Shown here piece after piece: positions 9,474 through 22,857 of a stretch of 64,000 bases of DNA. The stretch covers positions 62,001 through 126,000 of the forward strand of contig NZ_JACHZF010000011.1 in assembly GCF_014193375.1 (NCBI RefSeq), in the 5' to 3' direction. Position numbers and translations under genes: made by a program. Origin of the DNA: Halomonas campaniensis (GTDB taxonomy: Bacteria; Pseudomonadota; Gammaproteobacteria; Pseudomonadales; Halomonadaceae). The notes under the pieces are model-generated. The model saw only the letters and a program-made list of their open reading frames with translations, was not told where the DNA came from and did not search any database. The stretch's first letter is position 1; each line of letters opens with the position of its first letter.

Positions 9474-10601
9474 TTAAAGTTTCAGGAAGTCAATCAGTCT
9501 TCGATTAATTTCATCAGCATCGAACTGTTCCTCAGCCAGTTGTCTAGAGCGACAGCCCATGCTGAAAATCAAGTCAGGTTGAGCAATGAAACGCTCCATC
9601 GCCTCTGCAACGGCAGTGGCATCATGGGGCGGAACCTTGAAGCCATTCTCGCCATCGCGAATGGTCTCGCGGCAGCCCGGGACATCCGTCGTGATGATGG
9701 GCCGCCCAACGGCCATCGCCTCCTGGGTACTGCGTGGCACGCCCTCCCTGTAGGAGGGCAAGACAAACACACTGCTCTCTTCAAGCCAGTCAGCAACATT
9801 GGATACGACGCCGGGATAGATGATTACGCCGGTTTCCACCAGGCGATCCAGGTACGCTAGATCCACCGATCCGGGATTGCCGGGATCCGGCTTCCCAAGA
9901 ATGACAAACTCCGCCTCGGGATGACGCTTCTTGATAGCTTCAGCCGCCTGAAGATATTCGTTGATCCCTTTCTCTTCCAACAGTCGACCGACAAAAATAA
10001 AACGAACCCTATCCTTTTTTGGAATGGAGTAGGGGTACTCGTGAAGGTCAAGCCCAATGCCCCCCAGCACCATTACATTGTCAACACGAATCCGATATCT
10101 TTCGACCAGATCCCTCTTGTCGTCCGGGTTTAGCACAACAAGCCCTTTTAGAAGAGGGAGGGAAAGATGGAACAGGGAAACTTGAGTGCCGCGGATCAGG
10201 ATCTTTTTCCAACTATCGCTTCTGGGGTGGGCTGTAAAGTAATAACCCAGGCCTTCCAGCATGCCGTATCGACGCTTGACACCTGCCAACCTGGCGGCTA
10301 ACGCTCCCCAGATAACAGGCTTGGAGAAGTAACAAAAAACAAAGTCCGGATCGAGATTTTTCAAACGTCGATATAGCTTCCAGGCATTCTTCAAATCCAG
10401 CAGTGGGTTCATCCCCCTTCTGGCAAGCAGGTATTCCTCTGCCTCGACATTGAGCTCCTCTTTTGCACGCCTCTTGATCTCAGGGCTCAAGTCCGCCGTG
10501 AGTATTCTAACGTCATGGCCCACTTCAACCAGGGATTGCAGGAGAAGTTTTCTGAAACCGAAAATGGAAGAGGAATTCGTTCCAATAAGAACAACTTTCA
10601 T
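9474..10601 (-). CDS. Glycosyltransferase family 4, PglA-like
   Basis: 375 residues with a GT-B fold. N-terminal VVLIGTNSSSIFGFRKLLL binds the lipid-linked acceptor side; the C-terminal half carries FIFVGRLLEEKGINEYLQAA and the GT4 EX7E block SYREGVPRSTQEAMAVGRPI. It resembles PglA-type alpha-1,3-GalNAc transferases that add the second sugar to undecaprenyl-PP-diacetylbacillosamine, which fits the adjacent Pgl-like genes. The ATG at 10601 is preferred over a TTG two codons earlier because AAAGGGA lies 6 nt before it. The base composition is lower in GC than that of the downstream genes. The acceptor and donor are inferred. Confidence 0.85.
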   Translation of the reverse strand: MKVVLIGTNSSSIFGFRKLLLQSLVEVGHDVRILTADLSPEIKRRAKEELNVEAEEYLLARRGMNPLLDLKNAWKLYRRLKNLDPDFVFCYFSKPVIWGALAARLAGVKRRYGMLEGLGYYFTAHPRSDSWKKILIRGTQVSLFHLSLPLLKGLVVLNPDDKRDLVERYRIRVDNVMVLGGIGLDLHEYPYSIPKKDRVRFIFVGRLLEEKGINEYLQAAEAIKKRHPEAEFVILGKPDPGNPGSVDLAYLDRLVETGVIIYPGVVSNVADWLEESSVFVLPSYREGVPRSTQEAMAVGRPIITTDVPGCRETIRDGENGFKVPPHDATAVAEAMERFIAQPDLIFSMGCRSRQLAEEQFDADEINRRLIDFLKL

Positions 10602-10646
10602 GATCAATCCCTTTAACCATGGAGTGAAAAACCCACTCCGAAAGGC

Positions 10647-11846
10647 TCACTTTTTTTTATCTTGATAATGATCGCGCAGGTAGGTAACGACCCTCTCACA
10701 CTCCCGGCCGTCATTCATGGCGGCATGGCGAGCAGTGAAGCGAGCCAGTCGCTGATCATGCTGCCCTTCGGTAATTTCCAACCAGGCAGCGGGCACCTGT
10801 GACCAGTCACTGATCACCGGTCCAGGAGCGTCCTCGAGATAGTCACCATAGATACCGACATCGCGGTGGAGATAGTCGTCCAGGTCCGGCGCCATCAGGA
10901 TGATCGGGCGCTTGAAGCAGGCGTAGTCGAACATCAGACTCGAGTAGTCGGTGATCAGCACATCGACCTCGGGCATCAGTTCATTGACGTCGGGAAAGCG
11001 GTCTGATGAAGCCTCCACTACCCGCGAGTTGCGCCCGGCCAGCGCCTCGACCCCCGTCATCGTCAAGTCAACATGCCCTCTCACAAGAAGGATCAACTGC
11101 TCCTGCTCGAGCCAGGGCAGAAGCGCCTCGAGCCGATCGCCCTGTGCCACATCCAACCCGCCCCTGCCCTGTTGCCTGAGCGTTGGTGCATACAGCACGA
11201 TCCCCTTGTAATGGCGCGGCTCGATACCCTCGCGACGCAGGAGCGAAGCGGTATCGGTATGGAAAGCGGCCCAACGAGGGTAGCCGATTACCGGGACACG
11301 CTCGGACGGAAGACCGTAGGCCGATGTCATGCGCTGGCGCCCGACACCCGACGCCACCAGAACCCGCTCCGGTCCCCGCTTGCCCGGCAGCAGATGACGC
11401 AGATACCGGTCGAACAGCGGCGTCAGAATGCCAAGACGGCTGGATCTGGCATCCCTCCCGACCCGCTTCAGGGGAGTACCATGGGTCAGGTTGATCAGGG
11501 CGCCCCCCACGGAGGCGTGGGCGTTGACGTCCTCCGAGGTATGAGTGACCAGAAAGAGTCGCGCTCGCAACGAGATCCTGATACCCGCCAGCGAATAGGC
11601 CAGGGCGGCCTCGCCCCCTTCGTCGCGGACCTTTGCCACCACCTCAGGGCTGTGACTCAGCCAGACCGCACGAATGTCCGGTTCATGGTCACGCACATGA
11701 CGATAGAGATAGCGTGTATTGTCCGCGTACTGTCTACCAAGCCAGGCACCGAACACCCAGAGCCTGTCGTCACGGGAGCTGACAAAGCCAAGCAGACACA
11801 ACGGTAACCAGCCCAGTTGCCTTAACAGGCGCGCAAGGTAATTCAT
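10647..11846 (-). CDS. CDP-glycerol glycerophosphotransferase (TagB/TagF-like), copy 2
   Basis: 399 residues, the size of a single TagB/TagF catalytic domain. Seen: an N-terminal helix that probably docks at the membrane (LGWLPLCLLGF), the catalytic-His block INLTHGTPLKRVG, YAPTLRQQG in the nucleotide-binding half, and DVLITDYSSLMFDYACFKRPI, the family's Asp-Tyr-Ser-Ser block. It transfers glycerol phosphate from CDP-glycerol to a sugar or to a growing poly(glycerol phosphate) chain at the inner membrane. ATG 11846 is chosen over an upstream TTG; no good ribosome-binding site is seen for either. A related second enzyme is encoded at 18699. Confidence 0.85.
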   Translation of the reverse strand: MNYLARLLRQLGWLPLCLLGFVSSRDDRLWVFGAWLGRQYADNTRYLYRHVRDHEPDIRAVWLSHSPEVVAKVRDEGGEAALAYSLAGIRISLRARLFLVTHTSEDVNAHASVGGALINLTHGTPLKRVGRDARSSRLGILTPLFDRYLRHLLPGKRGPERVLVASGVGRQRMTSAYGLPSERVPVIGYPRWAAFHTDTASLLRREGIEPRHYKGIVLYAPTLRQQGRGGLDVAQGDRLEALLPWLEQEQLILLVRGHVDLTMTGVEALAGRNSRVVEASSDRFPDVNELMPEVDVLITDYSSLMFDYACFKRPIILMAPDLDDYLHRDVGIYGDYLEDAPGPVISDWSQVPAAWLEITEGQHDQRLARFTARHAAMNDGRECERVVTYLRDHYQDKKK

Positions 11847-11938
11847 GGCGTTTTGACTCTCGAGACGATGGGCTGGCAACGCCAGACAGACACAGGAGGT
11901 TGCGGTAGTTGACTTGCGGCAAGGTCAGCCTGGCCGGA

Positions 11939-12955
11939 TCAGCAGGCATACCCTTTCGGGTTGTTTGCCTGCCATCGCCAGGCATCCGCCGTCATTGCCG
12001 CCAGATCTCGCCTGGCACTCCAGCCCAGCTCGCGACGGGCCTTTGCGGCATCGGCCCAGCACTGCGCCAGATCTCCGGCCCGCCGCGGGGCGACCCGGTA
12101 GGGAATCGGACGGCCGACAGCTTTTTCGAAGGCCTGGATCATGTCCAGCACCGAGTATCCTCTCCCGGTGCCGAGGTTCCATACCGATACACCGTGGCGA
12201 TTGGCAATGGCCTGCATCGCCGCCAGGTGCCCCTCGACCAGATCCATCACATGGATGTAATCCCTGATCCCGGTGCCGTCAGGGGTCGGATAGTCATTGC
12301 CGAACACCGACAGGGCATCACGGCGGCCGACGGCGACCTGAGTAATGAAGGGGACAAGATTGTTGGGAATACCCAACGGGTCCTCACCAATACATCCACT
12401 GGGGTGCGCCCCGACAGGATTGAAGTAACGCAGCAACGCGATCGACCATCGAGTGTCAGCCGCAGACAGATCCCTGAGCATATCCTCCACCATCAGCTTG
12501 GAACGCCCATAAGGATTGGTCGGCACGCCGGTGGGCAACTCCTCGTGGTAGGGAACGGCGTCGGTGTCACCATAGACGGTTGCCGAGGAACTGAAGATAA
12601 GACGCCGGAGACCAGCGGCCTCCATGGCCAGACAGAGCGTCACTGCCCCTGCGACGTTATTGTCGAAGTAGCGCATGGGCTGCTCGATGCTCTCACCGAC
12701 CGCCTTGAGACCGGCAAAATGCAGCACATCGGAGACCTGATGATGGCGGAGCAGCCAATCCAGCAGACCACGGTCGCGTACATCACCCTCGATAAAAGCC
12801 ACTTCCCTGCCGGTCAACGCGGTGATCCGGTCGAGTGATACGGTCGATCCATTGCTCAGGTTGTCCAGTACCACTACCTCATGGCGATGCTCGAGCAGAG
12901 CGAGCACCATGTGTGAGCCGATGTAACCGGCACCGCCTGTCACGAGAATCGACAT
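11939..12955 (-). CDS. galE: UDP-glucose 4-epimerase
   Basis: 338 residues, the normal GalE size. An extended SDR that interconverts UDP-Glc and UDP-Gal (or the GlcNAc/GalNAc pair) with bound NAD. Seen: TGGAGYIGSH at 6-15, the catalytic Ser124 in FSSSATVYGD and Tyr149-x3-Lys153 in PYGRSK, and FNPVGAHPSG after it. GGGAG precedes the ATG. It is 92 bp upstream of the second glycerophosphotransferase and on the same strand, so it supplies a galactose-type donor to the locus. Confidence 0.95.
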   Translation of the reverse strand: MSILVTGGAGYIGSHMVLALLEHRHEVVVLDNLSNGSTVSLDRITALTGREVAFIEGDVRDRGLLDWLLRHHQVSDVLHFAGLKAVGESIEQPMRYFDNNVAGAVTLCLAMEAAGLRRLIFSSSATVYGDTDAVPYHEELPTGVPTNPYGRSKLMVEDMLRDLSAADTRWSIALLRYFNPVGAHPSGCIGEDPLGIPNNLVPFITQVAVGRRDALSVFGNDYPTPDGTGIRDYIHVMDLVEGHLAAMQAIANRHGVSVWNLGTGRGYSVLDMIQAFEKAVGRPIPYRVAPRRAGDLAQCWADAAKARRELGWSARRDLAAMTADAWRWQANNPKGYAC

Positions 12956-13144: not shown

Positions 13145-14077
13145 TCAGACCTTTCCAGCGCGCATCAGCACCGGAAAACCATTTGGCTGCCGGCCATCGA
13201 AAACCCTGTCGAAGATATCGAGCGCATCCGACTCCGCGATGAGCCCCATTCGAACCAGCGGCCAATTCGAGGACTCGCTTCGGCGTATGACCGATGGCCC
13301 TCTCTTGTGGGAGACATTGAGCAACACCGGCACTAACTCCTGCCCCATCGCAGACAGCACGGAGGCGCGATGCTGGCCATTGGCCACTAGAAACCTGACA
13401 TCGTCGTCACGCACCATGCAATCGACGACAAGATGCTGACGGATATATGGGAGGCAGGCGGAAGCACGCTGACGATACCCTTCCGAGGCAATCTGCTGAT
13501 GGAGAGTAACTAGATGATGAATCCTGAGCTCCCCGAACCAGTCGGGCTTGGGCCCCACCTGTCTTACTGAGATCTCGCGGGATACCGGGATCTTTTTCTG
13601 TGCCAGTGGACCTGATACATGGGACTCTGCAGCACACCTCAGGGCCTCGAAGTGCAATTTGCCGCCCCATGGCATGAAATCACTTAGTGGAGGGCAGGCG
13701 TTGAGCAATGGATGAGCCGACTCGGGATCGATGCCTAGGGATTGGGCCAGGGTTACCGGTGTCCATGAGCGCCAGTAATGCGCAAGACATGTCTCCTGGT
13801 AGCTGTCGCATTCACCACGCAGATGCTGCAGGAGGCTCTGGACATAGGGGTGCAGTGACCCGGGGCCATAGGCAAGGCCGGTGGGGCCAAACCATCGACA
13901 ATGAGCAAGCGGACACTCCACGACACTGGGGCGCTTGCGATACCGCTCCAGCAACTCCAGAACAGTGATCGGCAGCCCTCGAAGGTCATGGCTTCGATAG
14001 ACTCCAACTCCAATCTTTGCCAGCGCCCTGATGGGAAACTGACGGACAGCAGCAAGCAACCGTAAAGGTTCTGCCAT
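13145..14077 (-). CDS. ParB-fold-like protein of unknown function, paralogue A
   Basis: 310 residues from the ATG at 14077; a GTG 32 codons further upstream is possible, but neither has a good ribosome-binding site. Near the C-terminus, FLVANGQHRASVLSAMG followed by VPVLLN matches the box of ParB/sulfiredoxin-fold domains (the G-x-H-R-x3-L-x3-G type). It is clearly homologous to the protein at 17628: both have an HP[YF][VI] motif at residue 76 and GQHR at 234-237 with the starts chosen here, and both end with an NWPLVRMGL/FWPQVLAGN block and IFDRVFDG/VFDNIFSG. ParB-fold proteins include nucleotide-binding clamps and small-molecule kinases. A DNA-partition role is unlikely in a capsule locus. 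Function unknown. Confidence 0.75.
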   Translation of the reverse strand: MAEPLRLLAAVRQFPIRALAKIGVGVYRSHDLRGLPITVLELLERYRKRPSVVECPLAHCRWFGPTGLAYGPGSLHPYVQSLLQHLRGECDSYQETCLAHYWRSWTPVTLAQSLGIDPESAHPLLNACPPLSDFMPWGGKLHFEALRCAAESHVSGPLAQKKIPVSREISVRQVGPKPDWFGELRIHHLVTLHQQIASEGYRQRASACLPYIRQHLVVDCMVRDDDVRFLVANGQHRASVLSAMGQELVPVLLNVSHKRGPSVIRRSESSNWPLVRMGLIAESDALDIFDRVFDGRQPNGFPVLMRAGKV

Positions 14078-14248
14078 GATGGTCACCAACGTTTGGATAC
14101 ACGCAAATAGAGCACGGTTAGCTTTCCCTTGAGACAGTTCTCCTGGGCCGAGAATGGAGATATCGAAAATCACGCAAATAAATAAGCGTACTAAATTTTA
14201 AATGTCGGACTCATTATCAATTAAATACATCACTGAACAGCGCGCAGC

Positions 14249-14848
14249 TCAACCTTCTATCACCCTGTACCTCACACCTTCAAAGTCAGCTTTTCGAAGA
14301 GTTTTTTTGCTGGGATTCACCAGAAACACCTCATCCGATATCTTCATCAGCGGCAGATCCATATGATGATCGGTAAACAAGACAACATCATCTGCAAAAT
14401 CAATTACTTCATGAAGCGCCAACACCTTGTTCTCTGCATAGTTCTCAAAGAGCACACCGCCACAAACATAACTACCCAGAACCTTGTCGAATTTGACATT
14501 GAACGCCTCAGCCACATGCTCCAAATAGGAAAGTGGTGAGGCCGATGAAAGCACATGATATCCATCAATCTCGCTTATTCTCTCAACTACCAATGGATTG
14601 ACATGAACCTTGAGGCTTTCGACAAACAGGGTGTCATACTCTACCGGGTAGCTTTTCCGCATAAGAAAAGTCTTGAACTGGGAGGAAGAAATTACTCCTG
14701 CCCACCTGAGGGCCAAAGCGGACGAGAATCTAAAGAAAACAGGAATATCCCCCTTTTTAAAACTACACCTCACAATGTAAAAAACCCACATCGGGAACGA
14801 ATGCTTTTTCAACAGTGTTCCATCAAAGTCACAAATAACTGCCTTCAT
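14249..14848 (-). CDS. HAD-superfamily phosphatase (SerB-like)
   Basis: 199 residues from ATG 14848 (an ATG 15 nt upstream is also possible). Seen: motif I AVICDFDGTLLKK with the nucleophile and acid Asp pair, motif II VLSSASPLSYLEHVA, and motif III/IV VVLFTDHHMDLPLM, in the order of SerB-type HAD phosphatases with a helical cap between I and II. It is predicted to hydrolyse a phosphomonoester. In a locus making CDP-glycerol it could act on a phosphorylated polyol or sugar intermediate, but the substrate cannot be read. This gene and those around it are distinctly AT-richer than the flanking chromosome. No gene is seen in the 254-bp gap upstream (14849-15102). Confidence 0.8.
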   Translation of the reverse strand: MKAVICDFDGTLLKKHSFPMWVFYIVRCSFKKGDIPVFFRFSSALALRWAGVISSSQFKTFLMRKSYPVEYDTLFVESLKVHVNPLVVERISEIDGYHVLSSASPLSYLEHVAEAFNVKFDKVLGSYVCGGVLFENYAENKVLALHEVIDFADDVVLFTDHHMDLPLMKISDEVFLVNPSKKTLRKADFEGVRYRVIEG

Positions 14849-15102
14849 GAATATTTCACTCATTTCAAGTAAGAATAATGGCAAGCAACAGGAGTGCATC
14901 ACCCAACCATATAATCCGGCAAGAACCCTGTCAGATAAGCACAAGAAACTTACACACCCATTGACAGAAAAACCGCCACAGGAGACTTGGCGATACAGGT
15001 TGACTTTATCAGTTAATGCCTTGCCGCCATTCTCATGTTATATTACGGATCGAAAGCATGATGATGGATGAGTGAGACTAAATCAGAAGCATGAGCAACT
15101 GC

Positions 15103-15564
15103 CTAGCCAAAATCCTTGCGCAACTGCTCTATAACATCAAAAGCGCGAAGAATATCTTCCCGGGAAACGCTGCAGAAACGACTAAGCGAGCGTTTCAGTT
15201 CGGTCGTAGAGACTCCCTCGGTCCTCGGTAGATAAACAACCTCACAATGGGTAGAAAGAAAATCAAACTTCCCCGCCCAGTCATCCCCCATCGCGAACAC
15301 AGAAACCTCATGTCGCTTCACGTCTTCAACCTTCTGCTCCCAGGAGACTTCTGGTATGACTTCATCCACATGGCGAATATTACGAACAATTTCTGCTCGT
15401 TGTTCGAATGGTATAAGCGTACGCTTCCCTTTTCCTGCATTGAATTCATCCGTGGACACCGCCACGATCAGGCGATCCCCTAGCATGGAAATACGGCGAA
15501 GTAGGTTGAGATGCCCGATATGGAACATGTCAAAGGTGCCGTAGGTGATAACGACTCTTGTCAT
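15103..15564 (-). CDS. tagD: Glycerol-3-phosphate cytidylyltransferase (TagD-type)
   Basis: 153 residues. Makes CDP-glycerol from CTP and glycerol 3-phosphate, the donor for the two TagB/TagF-like enzymes in the locus. Seen: ITYGTFDMFHIGHLNLLRR with the HxGH CTP site at 15-18, the YAVGDDW-like FAMGDDWAGKFDFL, and RTEGVSTT at 114-121, the second cytidylyltransferase signature. TagD is usually about 130 residues; here about 30 extra C-terminal residues follow the RTxGxST block. ATG 15564 has CGGGAG upstream; the longer frame adds a non-homologous hydrophobic stretch. Confidence 0.92.
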   Translation of the reverse strand: MTRVVITYGTFDMFHIGHLNLLRRISMLGDRLIVAVSTDEFNAGKGKRTLIPFEQRAEIVRNIRHVDEVIPEVSWEQKVEDVKRHEVSVFAMGDDWAGKFDFLSTHCEVVYLPRTEGVSTTELKRSLSRFCSVSREDILRAFDVIEQLRKDFG

Positions 15565-15702
15565 CTTGAGTTCTCCCGAACAGCCAGACCAACATGCCGC
15601 TGTAAAAACGACACAGGAAGTGAGAATTGGGATTAGATAAATCATTCGCCAAAGATACAACGAGACTTATTCCTGCCGCCTCCGAAGGGTCATGAATCAA
15701 TA

Positions 15703-17580
15703 TCAAATGATGTAATGACGCTTCTGGGGCAGTGAAACAGCCTTTCTCCGGGCGTTATTGACAGAGAAGCAGACAAAAGTAACCCCCCTGACAAGGTGCA
15801 GAACTGATTTCGGGAAATTGTGGACACAGAAGAACAAGGGAAGCCCGGTGTATCGAAACCAGCGCCGTCGATACAGAGAACTGTTGTCTTTCAACTTGGG
15901 GAGATCGCCTTGAAAACTATCAGGCGCGGAGTACCAGGCGAAGTTTCCCACCAGGCTGTCCGAAGGAGCATCCCCTTTCTGCAGAAACTCAAAATCAATA
16001 ACTTTCAGCCCCATCCTTGAATCAAAAAGTATATTTTTTGGACTGAAATCCACGCACTCGTAACCACGCTCCCGGTAGTAAAGAATGATATTCTTCATTT
16101 TTTCAATTGCCCACATAGGCAAGTAGGCATTACTGTGAAAGAGGGGTCTGACACAGGATATGTCATCGATAGATCTGTCATAAAAGTCGATGACAATATA
16201 ATTATCACCAACCTCCAGCATCTCAGACACTTCATCCAGGCCTGCTCCTACTTCACGTGCATTTACCTCTCTATTGAGGAACTCTTCCCGCCCCTCCTTG
16301 AAGGTCTTGCATATGGCCTTTTTCCCATTATATTCAATCAATTCAACCTTGGCCCGTCGTGCATGATTGCTGAGATCCTTGATCACATTGAAGTGCGTGG
16401 CAAAAGTAGCATGCTTATTTTTAGCAACTTCTTGAACAAAATCCACATTTGAAGGATCTATGAGCTTGAGGTAATCAAGGGCCTGCGCGGCATTGTCAGC
16501 AGAGTGTATAATATTGCACCGCTCCTGTGGACACACCTGATGGTTGTAGAAGTCCCTGATCTTGATCTTGGCCATCGATATTCTTTCATTGACAAGACCT
16601 GGATGTTCTTTTTCTGCTGCGGCAGAGGGGGTGATTGGCTTGGCATCATAGACCACGAAATAATAGCCAGGCAGCCCGCCACTTTTTGGCCAGGGCCCCC
16701 TTCCCCAGTTTCCCCCACGAATTCCCGATGCCACCAAGCTAACATTGTCGGCGGGTATGCTTCCTTCCAGTACATGGTCAAAGCCTTCCTCAAAGAGGGT
16801 TTCCTTGATAGTCTCCAGATAAGACATGCCCTCTTCTCTTACCAGAAAGATCGTTAACCCCCTCAAGGGTTCTTCAATATCAACCAAATTTGATAAGAGT
16901 GCATCATGAATCCACTGGTTTTTTACTGACATTTTCTGCAGCGTGTCGTAAGCCGGCTTCCAGCCAGCCTCCCCTAACAGTCTGTCCAGCGCTTCAAGCG
17001 TGATGCTAAAACCAGTCAACTTTAAATTTGAAGACTCGTACAAAGACTTAATCTTGCCCATGTAATCATGATCGCAGGAAACAACAACGTTCCTGTTCCG
17101 ATCAACATCCTCCGAGGGAATCGCTGAAGCATAACCCTTGTGGTAGACGGCGTGATAGCACATCGACAGGAAATGGTCATTACAGGAAGGAGCCCTGACG
17201 GTCCCATTCACCCAGATGGCGTTTTTCAAAATCTTTCTGGCAACTGGCACGGGGTAATAAGGCATATTCCTTGAACTGGTGCCTGGCAGCCCACTGACAC
17301 TATAGATATCACAAGGGGTATCGTTTTTCTTGCCGATGAATTTTGTGTAGAACGTCAATCGTTCTACGTCTTCATCTGCCACCAGAATGTCGATATCTTC
17401 ACCTGGCGCCACATAGGGCAATTCCTCGAACCAGCGAAGTACCGCATAATCGATATCTTCTGCCTTCAGCACTTCAAGAAACCCGCTAACTCCAAGGGCG
17501 GAATCAATAAACCTACGCTGTGTCTGGGGGCGACCCAGAGCAATCGAAATCCGGCGCCTGATAGCTCTCTTGATTTTCAT
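15703..17580 (-). CDS. Nucleotidyltransferase / NDP-kinase-like / kinase-like fusion protein
   Basis: 625 residues in three parts. (1) Residues about 25-230 look like a nucleotidyltransferase-fold domain: AVLRWFEELPY then PGEDIDILVADED at 59-71 (G-x-D-x-D). (2) About 240-375 resemble nucleoside diphosphate kinase: RGLTIFLVREEGMSYLETI, a long insert, NERISMAKIKIRDFYN, then CNIIHSADNAAQALDYLKLI, matching the NDPK block that holds the phospho-histidine (here His359). (3) About 405-535 resemble a protein- or aminoglycoside-kinase fold: ICKTFKEG (Lys425), CVDFSPKNILFD (Asp511, Asn516), LKVIDFEFLQKG (Asp529). The last 90 residues are basic and partly hydrophobic and may touch the membrane. Domain assignments come from motifs read by eye. 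The fusion suggests phosphoryl or nucleotidyl chemistry on a polymer precursor; function unknown. Confidence 0.7.
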   Translation of the reverse strand: MKIKRAIRRRISIALGRPQTQRRFIDSALGVSGFLEVLKAEDIDYAVLRWFEELPYVAPGEDIDILVADEDVERLTFYTKFIGKKNDTPCDIYSVSGLPGTSSRNMPYYPVPVARKILKNAIWVNGTVRAPSCNDHFLSMCYHAVYHKGYASAIPSEDVDRNRNVVVSCDHDYMGKIKSLYESSNLKLTGFSITLEALDRLLGEAGWKPAYDTLQKMSVKNQWIHDALLSNLVDIEEPLRGLTIFLVREEGMSYLETIKETLFEEGFDHVLEGSIPADNVSLVASGIRGGNWGRGPWPKSGGLPGYYFVVYDAKPITPSAAAEKEHPGLVNERISMAKIKIRDFYNHQVCPQERCNIIHSADNAAQALDYLKLIDPSNVDFVQEVAKNKHATFATHFNVIKDLSNHARRAKVELIEYNGKKAICKTFKEGREEFLNREVNAREVGAGLDEVSEMLEVGDNYIVIDFYDRSIDDISCVRPLFHSNAYLPMWAIEKMKNIILYYRERGYECVDFSPKNILFDSRMGLKVIDFEFLQKGDAPSDSLVGNFAWYSAPDSFQGDLPKLKDNSSLYRRRWFRYTGLPLFFCVHNFPKSVLHLVRGVTFVCFSVNNARRKAVSLPQKRHYII

Positions 17581-17627
17581 CTTCTACCCATCCCTTTATT
17601 CTGCCAGCAATCACATGAAGATCAAGG

Positions 17628-18542
17628 TCAAGCGGCCTCAGCAAGAATTCCAGCCCAATATCGTTCATGCACTCCGACACCACTAAATATATTATCAAAC
17701 ACGCGCAATGCCATCTCCCTGGAGTAGTTGCCGGCCAGCACCTGCGGCCAGAAGTCCACTTCATCTCGGCATACGATGCTCTCAACCCTGATGGGGAAAT
17801 CTCGATACCCTAGGGCACTCAAGACTGCCACTCGATGCTGCCCTGACTTGACGAGCCACTTCCAGTTGCCGGAGGTCTGTACAAGGATGTCTGCGCGAAT
17901 ATCGCCATCTTTAAAGTCATGCCTCATGAAGCCATTCTTGATGACTGACCTCATGATCTTGTACAGCCTTTCAGCTTCGACACTTAGCTTTTCCCCTGAA
18001 ACGGGCCCACAGAAGTTGCATCCATGCTCAACACTCATCTCAGCAGTTGATACCTGACTGTTATCTTCCCGCTCTGTTTTAATAATCTTCTCTATGCGTT
18101 CTTTAACTGTCATGTCTTCCCAAGGCTTTATCACGACCCAAGGTGGCTGATCACCGAGCATGGGTATTTCCTCGGCCTCAGCGCCGAGCACCTCCGCAGC
18201 GGAAGCTGGCTGATAAAGGGTATAGAAACTCATGAGCCTTCTCCGGATCGCCTCCCTTTCATCCCCACCGATCAACGAAACATCTAGCGCCGACTGGACA
18301 GCCCTTATGAAGGGATGCCTGTTCTTGTCATCAAGTGGAAAAACAAACAGTGATCGCCCATCCTCTACCTTACCTGTGATCAGGAACTCCCCACTCTTTT
18401 TCAAGTACCTCAAAGCTCTCGGGTTTCCATCGAAGGAAAGCAGGGCAGTGGGCTTTGTTGAACTTAGTGGCGTTACATTGTACCCAAGGCTGGCAAGTAG
18501 CTTCTTGACTACTATGGCAGTAATTCCTGATTTCTTTGACAT
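17628..18542 (-). CDS. ParB-fold-like protein of unknown function, paralogue B
   Basis: 304 residues from ATG 18542, which has TTCGGAGG 9 nt upstream; a longer frame adds 21 residues without support. The C-terminal part WLVKSGQHRVAVLSALGYRDFPI carries the same GQHR box (234-237) as the protein at 13145, and the HPFI motif is again at residue 76, so the two proteins are collinear paralogues. Differences: B has a Cys-containing segment HGCNFCGPVSGEKLS (a possible metal or redox site) that A lacks. It lies 47 bp upstream of the three-domain kinase-like gene. No annotated family was recognised beyond the ParB-like box. Confidence 0.75.
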   Translation of the reverse strand: MSKKSGITAIVVKKLLASLGYNVTPLSSTKPTALLSFDGNPRALRYLKKSGEFLITGKVEDGRSLFVFPLDDKNRHPFIRAVQSALDVSLIGGDEREAIRRRLMSFYTLYQPASAAEVLGAEAEEIPMLGDQPPWVVIKPWEDMTVKERIEKIIKTEREDNSQVSTAEMSVEHGCNFCGPVSGEKLSVEAERLYKIMRSVIKNGFMRHDFKDGDIRADILVQTSGNWKWLVKSGQHRVAVLSALGYRDFPIRVESIVCRDEVDFWPQVLAGNYSREMALRVFDNIFSGVGVHERYWAGILAEAA

Positions 18543-18698: not shown

Positions 18699-19934
18699 CT
18701 AACTTATGCTTAGATCGCGCTTTGCCACATCAACGATTCTTTTCATGGCCGACTCTGATTCATCACTGCCATCAAAGTAAAATTTAGCGGCATCTCGTCG
18801 GCATTCCACCCAATGATCATGAGCTCCTATCAAGATGTCATTGCAATAATACAGAGCCTCTTCCCATGTGGTAGCAACAGGCCCCGGAACGGAATACTTA
18901 TCGCTGAAAAAACCTTGGTCATCTTTCGAATATTCCAGATAGTCCGGCGCAAGAAATATAACCGGCATCCCCAGCGGGAGAACATCGATAAAAATACTTG
19001 AGTAGTCGGTTATCAGGATATCAAAAGTATGAAGGTCATTGTAGATATCATCACATTGTCCATTATCGACAAGACGAACTGGCCCACAATCCAATGCCTC
19101 TGGAACAGGCTCCCGTTCTTGGAACGGATGTAGCCTTACTTCCATTGTTGCACCCATCCTGCGAAGCGAAGCGTGTAGAGCATTTCCATCCGGAACGGGT
19201 ACCTTTTCGAATAGTGACTCTCGACCAAGCGCCCTGTGCGTTGGCGCGTAGAGAATTTTTCTGGCATCACCCTCATCCGGTTTGCAATCAGGCGAAGCGA
19301 ATTGCTTCCTCAAGTTTTCAATCCTGACCGATCCCGCAACGATGCCGCGGCGGTAAGTTCCATCGAACGCCATACCGGTTCGGTCGCGGTCGACTTCGCT
19401 TTGAAATACCAGCAAATCCCACGTCGGATTGGCCCAAGGGAACATGATCTTCTGTAAATCAAGCATCCGGTTGTGAAGATTCCTGTAGTACCTGCCGGCT
19501 CTGCCTTGTTCGAGTAGCCCGGATACTGCCTTGAAACGCTTCAACGGTATGCCATGCCATAACTGAATCTTGTAGGCACCGAATGCCGCAATTCGGTTAT
19601 GATCGTTAGCGTAATGAGTATAGACACAGACGCCAGCACGCAATGTTGTCATAAAGCCACGGAAGGTATTGGACTTTAACACCGGGTAGCCACGACTCGT
19701 CAATTCATGAAATATTTCATCGGACTTCGTGCTCCACACAACACGAATATCCGCATCAATCCTGTTATCATGCAGGCCTTCGAAAAGCATACGGGAGTGG
19801 TCAGCATACTTCTTGCCGCTTGAGCTCCCAAATGCCCACAGCCTCCTATTTCGAGGGACAAGCAGAGTCAACAATGCGACGGGCATCCAGACAACATCAA
19901 TAGTGACACGCTTGAGTATTCTAATGACGTTCAT
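18699..19934 (-). CDS. CDP-glycerol glycerophosphotransferase (TagB/TagF-like), copy 1
   Basis: 411 residues. N-terminal hydrophobic helix VVWMPVALLTLLVP, then RLWAFGSSSGKKYADHSR, KIQLWHGIPLKRFK (catalytic-His block), ILYAPTHRA, EVRLHPFQ and DILITDYSSIFIDVLPLGMP, the full set of TagB/TagF motifs, better conserved than in the copy at 10647. ATG 19934 has AGGTGG 5 nt upstream. Two such enzymes with a TagD-type synthase imply either a priming plus a polymerising step, or two distinct glycerol-phosphate linkages (inference). Confidence 0.9.
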   Translation of the reverse strand: MNVIRILKRVTIDVVWMPVALLTLLVPRNRRLWAFGSSSGKKYADHSRMLFEGLHDNRIDADIRVVWSTKSDEIFHELTSRGYPVLKSNTFRGFMTTLRAGVCVYTHYANDHNRIAAFGAYKIQLWHGIPLKRFKAVSGLLEQGRAGRYYRNLHNRMLDLQKIMFPWANPTWDLLVFQSEVDRDRTGMAFDGTYRRGIVAGSVRIENLRKQFASPDCKPDEGDARKILYAPTHRALGRESLFEKVPVPDGNALHASLRRMGATMEVRLHPFQEREPVPEALDCGPVRLVDNGQCDDIYNDLHTFDILITDYSSIFIDVLPLGMPVIFLAPDYLEYSKDDQGFFSDKYSVPGPVATTWEEALYYCNDILIGAHDHWVECRRDAAKFYFDGSDESESAMKRIVDVAKRDLSIS

Positions 19935-20054
19935 ATGAACCACCTGAAGAGGCAGGCTTTTCCTGAATGCTTAACAATATCTTCAGATATCTGAGCGTAC
20001 CGGCAATGGTCGTAGCCTTTAGCATTCATTTTGACAAAACTTCACACGTCGCCA

Positions 20055-21017
20055 TCATGCTCTCCATGAGCGCTTCATATCAATAACTGCCTGATAGACA
20101 CCGAACGGCATGGACAGCACAAGCATTCTTATCACATTTTCATACCCCAGCCCTTTCAGACTGACATGAGGAAAATCCTGGTAACACCGTCTTCCTTGAA
20201 GTTTTTTTTCGGTTGCCCACGCAATTATCTTTCTATTGATGATTCGCCTCAACTGCAGATCGCATTCTCTGTCAAGTTCAGGATTTTCCACTTCGATAAA
20301 GTCAGCCAGTGGATGCACTGTCAAGTTAGCAGGGTTTTTGGTAACGTGGCTGTTATCCAGATGCCATTCGGAGGTGATTACATCGCAATAATAGAATTCA
20401 TCTACTCTTGCCAACAACTTAACCCAGAAGTACACATCCCCCCCACGCTTGTACCTCCCTTCGGGAAACCCACCCAGTCTGTCAAAAAATCCCTTCCGAG
20501 TGCAGGCTGAATTCATATGGATAAAATCGTTATGGGCAAAGAACGTCAACCCATCAAGTTTATTGTATCGGCCTGACCGAATTCCCTTGTTCTTGCCGAC
20601 GTCCTTATCACCCACTTTCATCACGTAGTTATTGCAGAAGAAATCTAGACCTTCATTCTCAGCGATGGCGGCATGAAGGATCGACAGGTGGTTGTCATGC
20701 ATGCTGTCATCGGCATCGAAGAAGACAACCCACTCGGCACGCGCCTTGCTGACACCGAGATTTCTGGCCGCATACCCTCCCGGGCCCGGAATGTTTCGCT
20801 GGTAAAGGCTCAGCTTTCCTTCGCCCTCATGGCGCTGTAGTAGCTCCAGGGAACCGTCGGTGGAGCAGTCATCTACCGCAATGACCTCGAAGCTCCTGAA
20901 GGTCTGGGCATACACGCAGGCCAGCGACTTCTCCAGATATTCGGCCTTGTTGTGGACGGGGATGATCACGGAAAAGAAGGGAATGTTACCAGGGGCCGGC
21001 GCTTCATTCTTTTTCAT
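20055..21017 (-). CDS. Glycosyltransferase family 2
   Basis: 320 residues with a GT-A fold at the N-terminus: FFSVIIPVHNKAEYLEKSLA, VIAVDDCSTDGSLELL, and the metal-binding DxD region VVFFDADDSMHDNHL. GPGGYAARNLGVSKARAEW is the nucleotide-sugar contact region typical of GT2. The C-terminal third has no membrane span, so it is a cytosolic or peripheral transferase that extends the lipid-linked repeat unit. It follows the ABC transporter by 37 bp. Donor and acceptor are unknown. Confidence 0.88.
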   Translation of the reverse strand: MKKNEAPAPGNIPFFSVIIPVHNKAEYLEKSLACVYAQTFRSFEVIAVDDCSTDGSLELLQRHEGEGKLSLYQRNIPGPGGYAARNLGVSKARAEWVVFFDADDSMHDNHLSILHAAIAENEGLDFFCNNYVMKVGDKDVGKNKGIRSGRYNKLDGLTFFAHNDFIHMNSACTRKGFFDRLGGFPEGRYKRGGDVYFWVKLLARVDEFYYCDVITSEWHLDNSHVTKNPANLTVHPLADFIEVENPELDRECDLQLRRIINRKIIAWATEKKLQGRRCYQDFPHVSLKGLGYENVIRMLVLSMPFGVYQAVIDMKRSWRA

Positions 21018-21054: not shown

Positions 21055-22857
21055 TCACAGGTTGGCCATCATCTTGAAGGTGGTGTTGCGTGCTATCAGG
21101 TCATCATAGGTGCCACTGTCGGCCACCTGCCCGGACTCGAGGATGTAGATCATGTCGCAGCCCTTGACGGTGGTCAGGCGGTGGGCAATCAGTACGATGG
21201 TCATGTTGCCCGCCAGGGCCTGGATGTCCTCCATCACGCGGCGTTCGGTGATTCCGTCGAGTGCACTGGTGGCCTCATCCAGCACCAGCACCCTCGCCTC
21301 CTGATACAGGGCTCTGGCTATTCCGATCCGTTGCCGCTGTCCACCGGAGAGTTGCACGCCACGCTCACCGACCCAGGTATTTACGCCCTCGGGCAGCTTG
21401 TCGATCAGTTCATCGAGCTGCGCCATCCTCAGGGCCTCCAGGGCCTTGGCTACGTCGATCTGGTCCGGCGCAACACCGAAGGCCACATTCTCGAGGATGC
21501 TGGTGTCAGCAAGGAATATCTGCTGTGGCACCAGACCCAGGCTCGCCTGCCAACGGCGAAGATTTACAGCCGTGAGGGGCACTCCATCGATCAGCACGCT
21601 GCCCTGGTCCGGCTGGATCAGGCCAAGCAGCAAATCCACGGCGGTGCTCTTGCCGCTTCCGGACGCTCCAACCAGACCCACCATCCGGTTGACCGGAATG
21701 GTCAATGTCAAACCGTTCAATGCCCTGTCTTTCTTTCCCGGATACGCAAATGTCACGTCCTGCAGGTCGATGGCTTGCTCAGGGACCAGGGGCGCCATCT
21801 CGCTCTCCGATCCGCTCCCCGCCTGGTTCGGTACCTCGCGACTCGCTATCAGGTCATCGCGAATACTGTAGTAGGACGCCAGGTTGCCTCGGATCTCCGA
21901 TACGGATGAGTAGATCTTCTGGAAGGCCGGTAACATCTTGAATCCGGCGAGGGCATAGATCGACAGCGCGGGCAGGATAGCCCCGAGATTCCCCTCGTAG
22001 AGGTTCAGCAGGTAGAGCACCAGCAGGATGATCGACGTAAAGGCCACCAGTTCGATGGCATACCGGGGGGCCTCGCTGAGCCCTTGGGTGACCCCCTGAC
22101 CGCGGGCAACCCGATTACTGGCCCTTTCGAAGCGAGAGACGAAGGTGCCCTGCCGATGCAGCAGCAGCAGGTCCTTGATCCCACCGAAGCCTTCGGTCAT
22201 CAGCTTGATGCGCTTGGCCTGGGCGCGAGAGACCCGCCGGCCATTGGCCACCAGAAAACGACGAACCGTCTTGTAGAGCAGCAGGTAGGCCACGGCGAAG
22301 ATCAGGAAGCCTGCCAAGGCCACCCCGGGCTGATAGAGGAAGATCGCCACGGTCATGATGCAGACCATCACCAGCTTGGCATTGAGCTGCAGGCTCGGGC
22401 CGATGATCTTGTTCGTGGTTCGCTGCACCTCCTGGGACGCCTTGCTGATCAAGCGACTGGAACTCTGTCCGGAGTGAAACAGCCAGGGCTGGTGAAGATA
22501 GTAACGGTAGAGGCGACTCGACAGTTCCGCGCCGACACTGGCGCTGTAGAGCGCCAGCCGCCAGGTGGTGTACATGGAGAACATCGCCGCCAGCAATAGA
22601 ACAAGCAGCACCAGGCTGCCCAGCAGGGTCAGGAACGCCTCGGGGCTCTGCAGGCCACTGGCCTGGTACACCCACGCCATTCGCCCCTCACCCTCGAGTC
22701 GCTGCATGTCTCCCACCACGGCCATGAAGGGCCCTATCGAGATAACGCTCGCGATCTCGGCTAGCGACATGATGATGATGAGACCCTGTAGTTGGAGCAG
22801 CCGACGACGCTGGGCTCTGCTCAGCAGCGCATAGAATTCTCGTAGATCCTTCAACAT
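21055..22857 (-). CDS. MsbA/PglK-like ABC exporter, probable lipid-linked oligosaccharide flippase
   Basis: 600 residues: a six-helix transmembrane domain (about 1-320) fused to an ATPase domain with Walker A GASGSGKST at 397-405, Q-loop VPQQIF, signature LSGGQ at 503-507, Walker B VLVLDE at 523-528 and switch His559. This half-transporter layout is that of MsbA and PglK, which flips undecaprenyl-PP-linked oligosaccharide. No Wzx flippase is seen in the locus and the neighbours include Pgl-like enzymes, so it is probably the repeat-unit flippase (inference). It lies 21 bp downstream of the dehydratase gene. Confidence 0.88.
   Translation of the reverse strand: MLKDLREFYALLSRAQRRRLLQLQGLIIIMSLAEIASVISIGPFMAVVGDMQRLEGEGRMAWVYQASGLQSPEAFLTLLGSLVLLVLLLAAMFSMYTTWRLALYSASVGAELSSRLYRYYLHQPWLFHSGQSSSRLISKASQEVQRTTNKIIGPSLQLNAKLVMVCIMTVAIFLYQPGVALAGFLIFAVAYLLLYKTVRRFLVANGRRVSRAQAKRIKLMTEGFGGIKDLLLLHRQGTFVSRFERASNRVARGQGVTQGLSEAPRYAIELVAFTSIILLVLYLLNLYEGNLGAILPALSIYALAGFKMLPAFQKIYSSVSEIRGNLASYYSIRDDLIASREVPNQAGSGSESEMAPLVPEQAIDLQDVTFAYPGKKDRALNGLTLTIPVNRMVGLVGASGSGKSTAVDLLLGLIQPDQGSVLIDGVPLTAVNLRRWQASLGLVPQQIFLADTSILENVAFGVAPDQIDVAKALEALRMAQLDELIDKLPEGVNTWVGERGVQLSGGQRQRIGIARALYQEARVLVLDEATSALDGITERRVMEDIQALAGNMTIVLIAHRLTTVKGCDMIYILESGQVADSGTYDDLIARNTTFKMMANL

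Follow-up and report, generated by a model that had tools for sequence, protein, structure and literature searches.

An unnamed protein family with a predicted ParB/sulfiredoxin fold, present as two paralogues in a surface-polysaccharide operon of Halomonas campaniensis

The 64,000-nucleotide stretch of Halomonas campaniensis DNA analyzed here (the window) encodes two true but distant paralogues, which we call A-type (P0001) and B-type (P0002). The family to which they belong is unnamed; its superfamily is known, and its setting is new. A ParB/sulfiredoxin (Srx) fold is well supported for the family at the level of prediction, and in many genomes its members are encoded close to genes for surface glycans. 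What ParB-type folds are known for is DNA segregation; this family hints that the same fold has been reused in coat building. Our working proposal, held tentatively and with slightly less than even confidence, is that this is a nucleotide-using ParB/Srx-fold family of surface-glycan assembly, represented in the window by one possibly catalytic protein and one altered partner.

Both paralogue genes lie on the minus strand, about which the sequence-only reading had been silent, and the wider locus is a single run of minus-strand genes. The relevant part of it reads as follows.

10647-11879, minus strand: second TagF-like glycerophosphotransferase (PF04464)
11939-12955, minus strand: GalE-like sugar epimerase (label from sequence)
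13145-14077, minus strand: A-type paralogue (P0001), 310 aa, GQHR at residues 234-237, Arg185 and His188
14249-14944, minus strand: HAD family phosphatase (HAD-IB type by a weak NCBIfam match)
15103-15660, minus strand: TagD-like glycerol-3-phosphate cytidylyltransferase (TIGR01518, 167.5 bits against a cut-off of 165.4)
15703-17580, minus strand: 625 aa protein, nucleotidyltransferase-like at the N-terminus (with DxD) and protein-kinase-like at the C-terminus (weak family matches, labels provisional)
17628-18542, minus strand: B-type paralogue (P0002), 304 aa, GQHR at residues 234-237, Glu189 and Arg192
18699-19943, minus strand: TagF-like glycerophosphotransferase (PF04464)
20055-21017, minus strand: family 2 glycosyltransferase (family match)
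21055-22857, minus strand: flippase-type ABC transporter (label from sequence, without a family scan)

The sequence-only reading had placed the pair in a capsule locus. Pfam and NCBIfam matches bear out a surface-polysaccharide operon with CDP-glycerol genes, of which a capsule is the presumed product. Besides two Glyphos_transf genes and a glycerol-3-phosphate cytidylyltransferase, the matches identify an ATP-grasp protein, a bacterial sugar transferase, and glycosyltransferases of family 2 and group 1. The labels wza, wzc, wzy, galE, PglF and ABC flippase were assigned from sequence, without a family scan. The same reading had found no DNA-partition partner, and this holds, the genome's one PF02195 ParB being located on another contig (C4). 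The gene for the 625 aa protein adjoins the B-type gene, and its relatives flank B-clade members in other genomes. In the PDB, a profile of its kinase-like part finds Ser/Thr kinases, at best with E = 5.8e-5, and at L079-L081 and L084 the kinase-like part alone was called. One of eight neighbors of the kinase-like alignment has a weak Pfam match to TauD.

The two proteins align over 225 aa with 24% identity (BLASTP, E = 1e-12), which is far beyond chance and confirms the proposed paralogy. The motifs on which that proposal was built are also where they were said to be, with GQHR at residues 234-237 of A-type and B-type, and HPYV (A-type) or HPFI (B-type) starting at residue 76 of the respective protein. 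A 14-member family profile that includes both scores the two at 1.9e-82 and 7.4e-80. In a tree, the A clade is separate from the clade of B and its close relatives, with starred support for each. Thus, A and B are separate old clades that met in this operon and did not originate there. A recent tandem duplication was considered and rejected because of these separate clades. The B-type gene lies within a block of foreign-looking GC content (0.44-0.50 at 14-21 kb), and the A-type gene (0.589 at 13-14 kb) is nearer in GC to its surroundings, which reach 0.58-0.65 at 21-31 kb, the ABC side. On the other side GC is mixed (0.51-0.54 at 9-11 kb and 0.60-0.63 at 11-13 kb), so the differing GC of the two genes is only a supporting argument against tandem duplication.

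Relatives were sought in genome samples for order, class, phylum and family that overlap one another. Of 390 genomes sampled for the order, 13 had a match when the B-type protein alone was the query; the 14-row profile matched 30 of 250 genomes of the family to which H. campaniensis belongs and 5 of 369 in the class sample (own genome included in each count), and in the phylum sample of 398 genomes it matched only the genome of the window. In a second family, 4 of 22 genomes matched, three of them already found in the order-level search. Named relatives come from Halomonas sp. Kmv22, Halomonas alkalisoli, Halomonas getboli, Vreelandella alkaliphila, V. venusta and V. rituensis, with one distant relative in a Bacillota record, Acetoanaerobium noterae. 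This Bacillota protein (L131:7071-8444) is longer, at 457 aa, its record is listed as a 2.6 Mb plasmid, and a peroxiredoxin-like gene (a label from sequence) lies about 4 kb away. Two copies occur in 5 of the 30 own-family genomes, and all four genomes with an A-type copy are among these five. The chance of that co-occurrence would be 0.0002 if genomes were independent, but only two lineages are involved. In the family survey, 4/4 A-type genomes, again from only two lineages, also have a Glu-bearing copy. Across 49 members, Pfam offers no consistent model for the family, giving 17 weak matches. Relatives were not found in viral_contigs by a pattern search with five B-type members, nor in phage records searched with the B-type protein. 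A viral fold search returned phage and giant-virus proteins of the ParB/Srx type, without any match at E<0.001.

The association with polysaccharide genes extends well beyond the window. We compared stretches of up to 14 kb, centered on 51 family ORFs from 48 loci (three loci contribute two ORFs each, and the two of L092 are pieces of one gene), with 20 control stretches of 14 kb, picked at random in ten of the genomes that hold these loci. Not counting ABC transporters, we found glycan genes in 38 of the 51 relatives' stretches and in 1 of the 20 random ones (Fisher p=6e-8, an optimistic value for related rows), in agreement with the linkage expected from the sequence-only reading. The reference set was taken from this window, which favors window-like loci and misses other glycan genes. 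Among the 13 stretches counted as empty, five have an ABC match (L083, L085, L094, L099 and L101), and L023 and L024 carry polysialyltransferase-like, YrbL, polysaccharide pyruvyl transferase or APH genes, confirmed by Pfam in a scan of 10 chosen proteins. An acyltransferase-SGNH gene adjoins the family gene in L019 and L085, which were likewise counted empty. No glycan gene was recognized near the relatives in L069, L022 and the Bacillota locus L131, the last of which is outside the 51. In L092, the ParB-fold gene (9714-10757) was called in two pieces, and one TAG lies within the genome-search match.

ABC matches within 7 kb were also more frequent near relatives than in controls (31/51 vs. 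5/20, p=0.009). In other genomes, ABC-flippase relatives are the commonest labeled direct neighbor of the ParB-fold gene; counting the window and gene pieces, an ABC-flippase-like gene directly adjoins 16 of 53 family ORFs and a nucleotidyltransferase/kinase-like gene adjoins 11 of 53, one of these 11 (L082) being a weak match. A handling of CDP-glycerol by the neighbors, which had been read from the sequence of the window, is correct for this operon but is not the common denominator: a tagD-like match lies near only 10 of 51 relatives, and a CDP-glycerol link was rejected as a general rule of the family. Of the other genomes examined, one, that of Halomonas sp. Kmv22 (L068), has the exact pair next to tagD-like and TagF-like genes. 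There the window order from the PglF-like gene to the second TagF-like gene recurs, and the HAD phosphatase gene (14249-14944 in the window) is missing from the otherwise syntenic locus.

As a separate observation, small CTP-dependent riboflavin kinase-like proteins (PF01982) are encoded near one ParB-fold clade in bacterial glycan loci.

L096:7505-7993: riboflavin kinase-like, PF01982 34.6 bits, above the cut-off of 25
L097:7568-8056: riboflavin kinase-like, by alignment only
L082:12006-12491: riboflavin kinase-like, PF01982 24.5 bits, under the cut-off of 25
L087:11970-12455: riboflavin kinase-like, PF01982 21.3 bits, under the cut-off of 25

The proposed ParB/sulfiredoxin fold is borne out at the level of prediction, by profiles that lead to SbnI and by the top Foldseek ranks of both models. 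When the 14-member profile was run against 177,635 PDB sequences, it found three SbnI sequences (E=0.00026, 0.00027 and 0.0022), and the next matches were unrelated (E>1). A 49-member profile retrieved those three SbnI sequences alone and no more strongly (best 0.0011, vs. 0.00026 with 14 rows). NCBIfam matched SerK in 8 of the 49 members (best 0.0015) and SbnI in 4 (best 0.0087), which are weak E-values, and every other family in 1 member. PF02195 (ParB_N) did not reach its curated cut-off in A-type or B-type and is absent from the families matched by the 49 members. An AlphaFold2 model of the B-type protein, built from 9 sequences, reached pLDDT 77 and pTM 0.77; that of the A-type protein was poor (pLDDT 57, pTM 0.55). 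In Foldseek, ranks 1-14 were sulfiredoxin for both models, followed by SbnI and KorB/Noc/ParB, with SerK lower, for B-type, and by PadC, SbnI, Noc and SerK for A-type; neither model had a match at E<0.001. VIA-align gave Z = 5.0 for sulfiredoxin 2rii_X (rmsd 3.7, 103 aligned), 4.8 for SbnI 5ujd (rmsd 2.6, 80 aligned) and 4.8 for SerK 5x0b (rmsd 6.0, 106 aligned). Unrelated helical proteins score at the same level (AddAB 5.4, POLRMT 4.9) as these superfamily values (4.3-5.0), and according to the tool's own warning Z<8 may signify just a common arrangement. Matches outside the superfamily, among them AddAB and POLRMT (Z of about 3-5), mostly cover residues 73-204, where the helical insertion is followed by a further helix; we set them aside as generic helix matches. 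Taken together, sequence and structure make a ParB/Srx core likely. A putative helical insertion of about 100 residues, spanning roughly 75-175, would separate the first strand from the base-binding helix.

Conservation was counted over 49 family members, A-type and B-type included. The family-wide motif is G-x-H-R, with His236 and Arg237 in 49/49, Gly234 in 48/49 and a variable x, whereas of the HP[YF][VI] box the Pro alone is widely kept (40/49). The loop has the Box II GxxR form and aligns to the SbnI loop. Glu189 is present in 45/49 members, and in 45/45 outside the A clade, where Arg192 is also kept in 44 of 45. All four members of the A clade have Arg at the Glu189 place and His or Gln at the Arg192 place. 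Because they also have a Glu of their own two places earlier (position 187 in B-type numbering, 4/4), a shift of register is possible.

By sequence profile, the nearest families are SbnI, the O-phospho-L-serine synthase of Staphylococcus, and archaeal SerK, which have in common with our family the G-x-H-R loop followed by a helix and a strand. Kinship with them is likely, judging from the profiles. SbnI kinase activity requires Glu20 and Asp58, according to passages of PMC9641203, and mutants in PDB titles point to Glu30 as the catalytic Glu of SerK. The Asp58 column, assigned from NCBIfam and PDB profile alignments, holds Ser233 in B-type and Asn233 in A-type; it is acidic in 2/49 members and non-acidic in 47/49. 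An ungapped extension of the alignments would put Glu20 opposite Leu186, three residues off Glu189. The scores are also far under the family cut-offs (B-type: 12.7 bits vs. 380 for SerK and 12.6 bits vs. 350 for SbnI), and our family differs further in its probable insertion of about 100 residues and in its surface-glycan context. With one catalytic residue (Asp58) not matched in the alignments, the idea of a SbnI/SerK-type kinase is weaker.

Other known systems share some features with the family and lack others. Sulfiredoxin is the top Foldseek match for both models, and its loop, GGCHR with a catalytic Cys, resembles that of the family. In contrast, the aligned family members have no Cys at this place (Gln235 in A-type and B-type), and no peroxiredoxin was found among the nine window genes scanned. 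The N-terminal CTPase domain of ParB, Noc and KorB has the same fold family and the same Box II GxxR loop form. The ParB loop is GERR, with Arg where our family has His ahead of the final Arg; moreover, our family lacks a PF02195 match, and no ParA-type or DNA-binding family was found among the genes scanned. Gram-negative loci with TagF-like capsule polymerases resemble the window in carrying polyol-phosphate polymer genes within a polysaccharide locus, and the passages of PMC5974469 that describe them mention no ParB-fold protein.

We infer the following mechanism. The core would consist of a strand, the helical insertion of about 100 residues, a base-binding helix and loop, and then the G-x-H-R phosphate loop, and the family would help to assemble lipid-linked surface glycans in the cytoplasm, be it capsule, lipopolysaccharide core or exopolysaccharide. 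The B-type protein would bind a nucleotide through G-x-H-R and use it for phosphotransfer to, or activation of, the end of a glycan or a hydroxylated building block. Glu189 and Arg192 would belong to its active site, and it would cooperate with the adjoining 625 aa nucleotidyltransferase-like/kinase-like protein. The A-type protein, which is without the Glu/Arg pair, may be a nucleotide-binding partner or regulator. Passages of the 2025 survey of ParB-type folds (PMC12704722) bear on the nucleotide step: the ParB-fold binders that were tested lost nucleotide binding when the Arg of Box II GxxR was changed to Ala, no nucleotide was bound by 17 of the 28 ParB-fold proteins purified, and prediction of nucleotide specificity from sequence fails. 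A more specific version is improbable: a new ParB/Srx-fold enzyme branch for surface glycans, in which a nucleotide would phosphorylate or activate an unusual building block that is passed to the adjoining nucleotidyltransferase/kinase-like protein and the TagF-like transferases, with a catalytic copy paired here with one lacking the active-site Glu and Arg.

The main rival of the phosphotransfer model is a nucleotide-dependent switch or scaffold that binds NTP via G-x-H-R, transfers no phosphate to a metabolite, and gates or coordinates the glycan machine, for example the ABC flippase or the glycosyltransferases. We consider it unlikely, yet the strongest of the competing explanations. It would fit the missing SbnI catalytic Asp, the use of this fold as a switch or scaffold by ParB, Noc and PadC (described in parts of PMC12704722), and the proximity of ABC genes (direct neighbors of 16/53 ORFs; within 7 kb in 31/51 vs. 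5/20), although this adjacency may reflect operon order alone. The Glu/Arg pair, nearly invariant in all clades but one, is what an active site would predict and argues against a mere switch. A second kind of chemistry, in which the protein is a free amino-acid or hydroxy-acid kinase like SerK or SbnI and makes a phosphorylated precursor (e.g. O-phosphoserine) for a glycan substituent, seems rather improbable. In its favor, no families are closer in sequence than SerK and SbnI, and HAD phosphatase and ATP-grasp genes lie in the same operon; however, the Asp58 place is acidic in only 2/49 members, Glu20 has no clear match, the syntenic locus L068 is without the HAD gene, and the bit scores of the B-type protein are a small fraction of the SerK and SbnI cut-offs.

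Two further explanations deserve little credence. The protein could be a DNA-binding regulator of capsule genes, a role proposed for SbnI and EdeB (described as regulators in passages of PMC9641203) and reported for VirB, a ParB-type regulator according to a literature abstract. This is very unlikely for a gene that sits inside a biosynthetic operon and travels with enzyme genes, and no helix-turn-helix was found among the 17 weak Pfam matches of the 49 members. The modest structural scores would be compatible with a misassigned fold, namely a helical glycan-assembly protein whose G-x-H-R match arose by chance, but sequence profiles and Foldseek picked the same superfamily out of very large libraries, and we regard such a coincidence as highly improbable.

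The 2025 survey extends ParB-type folds to many fusions, and its main text does not name polysaccharide assembly (PMC12704722); among the matches listed from the open-licence literature, none concerned polysaccharide assembly by a ParB-fold protein. A family that lacks a Pfam model and is linked to surface glycans in several families of a single class would place the fold in a new biological context. It would also offer a way to approach genes that have no family name, and it could reveal how Gram-negative bacteria make phosphate-bearing coats.
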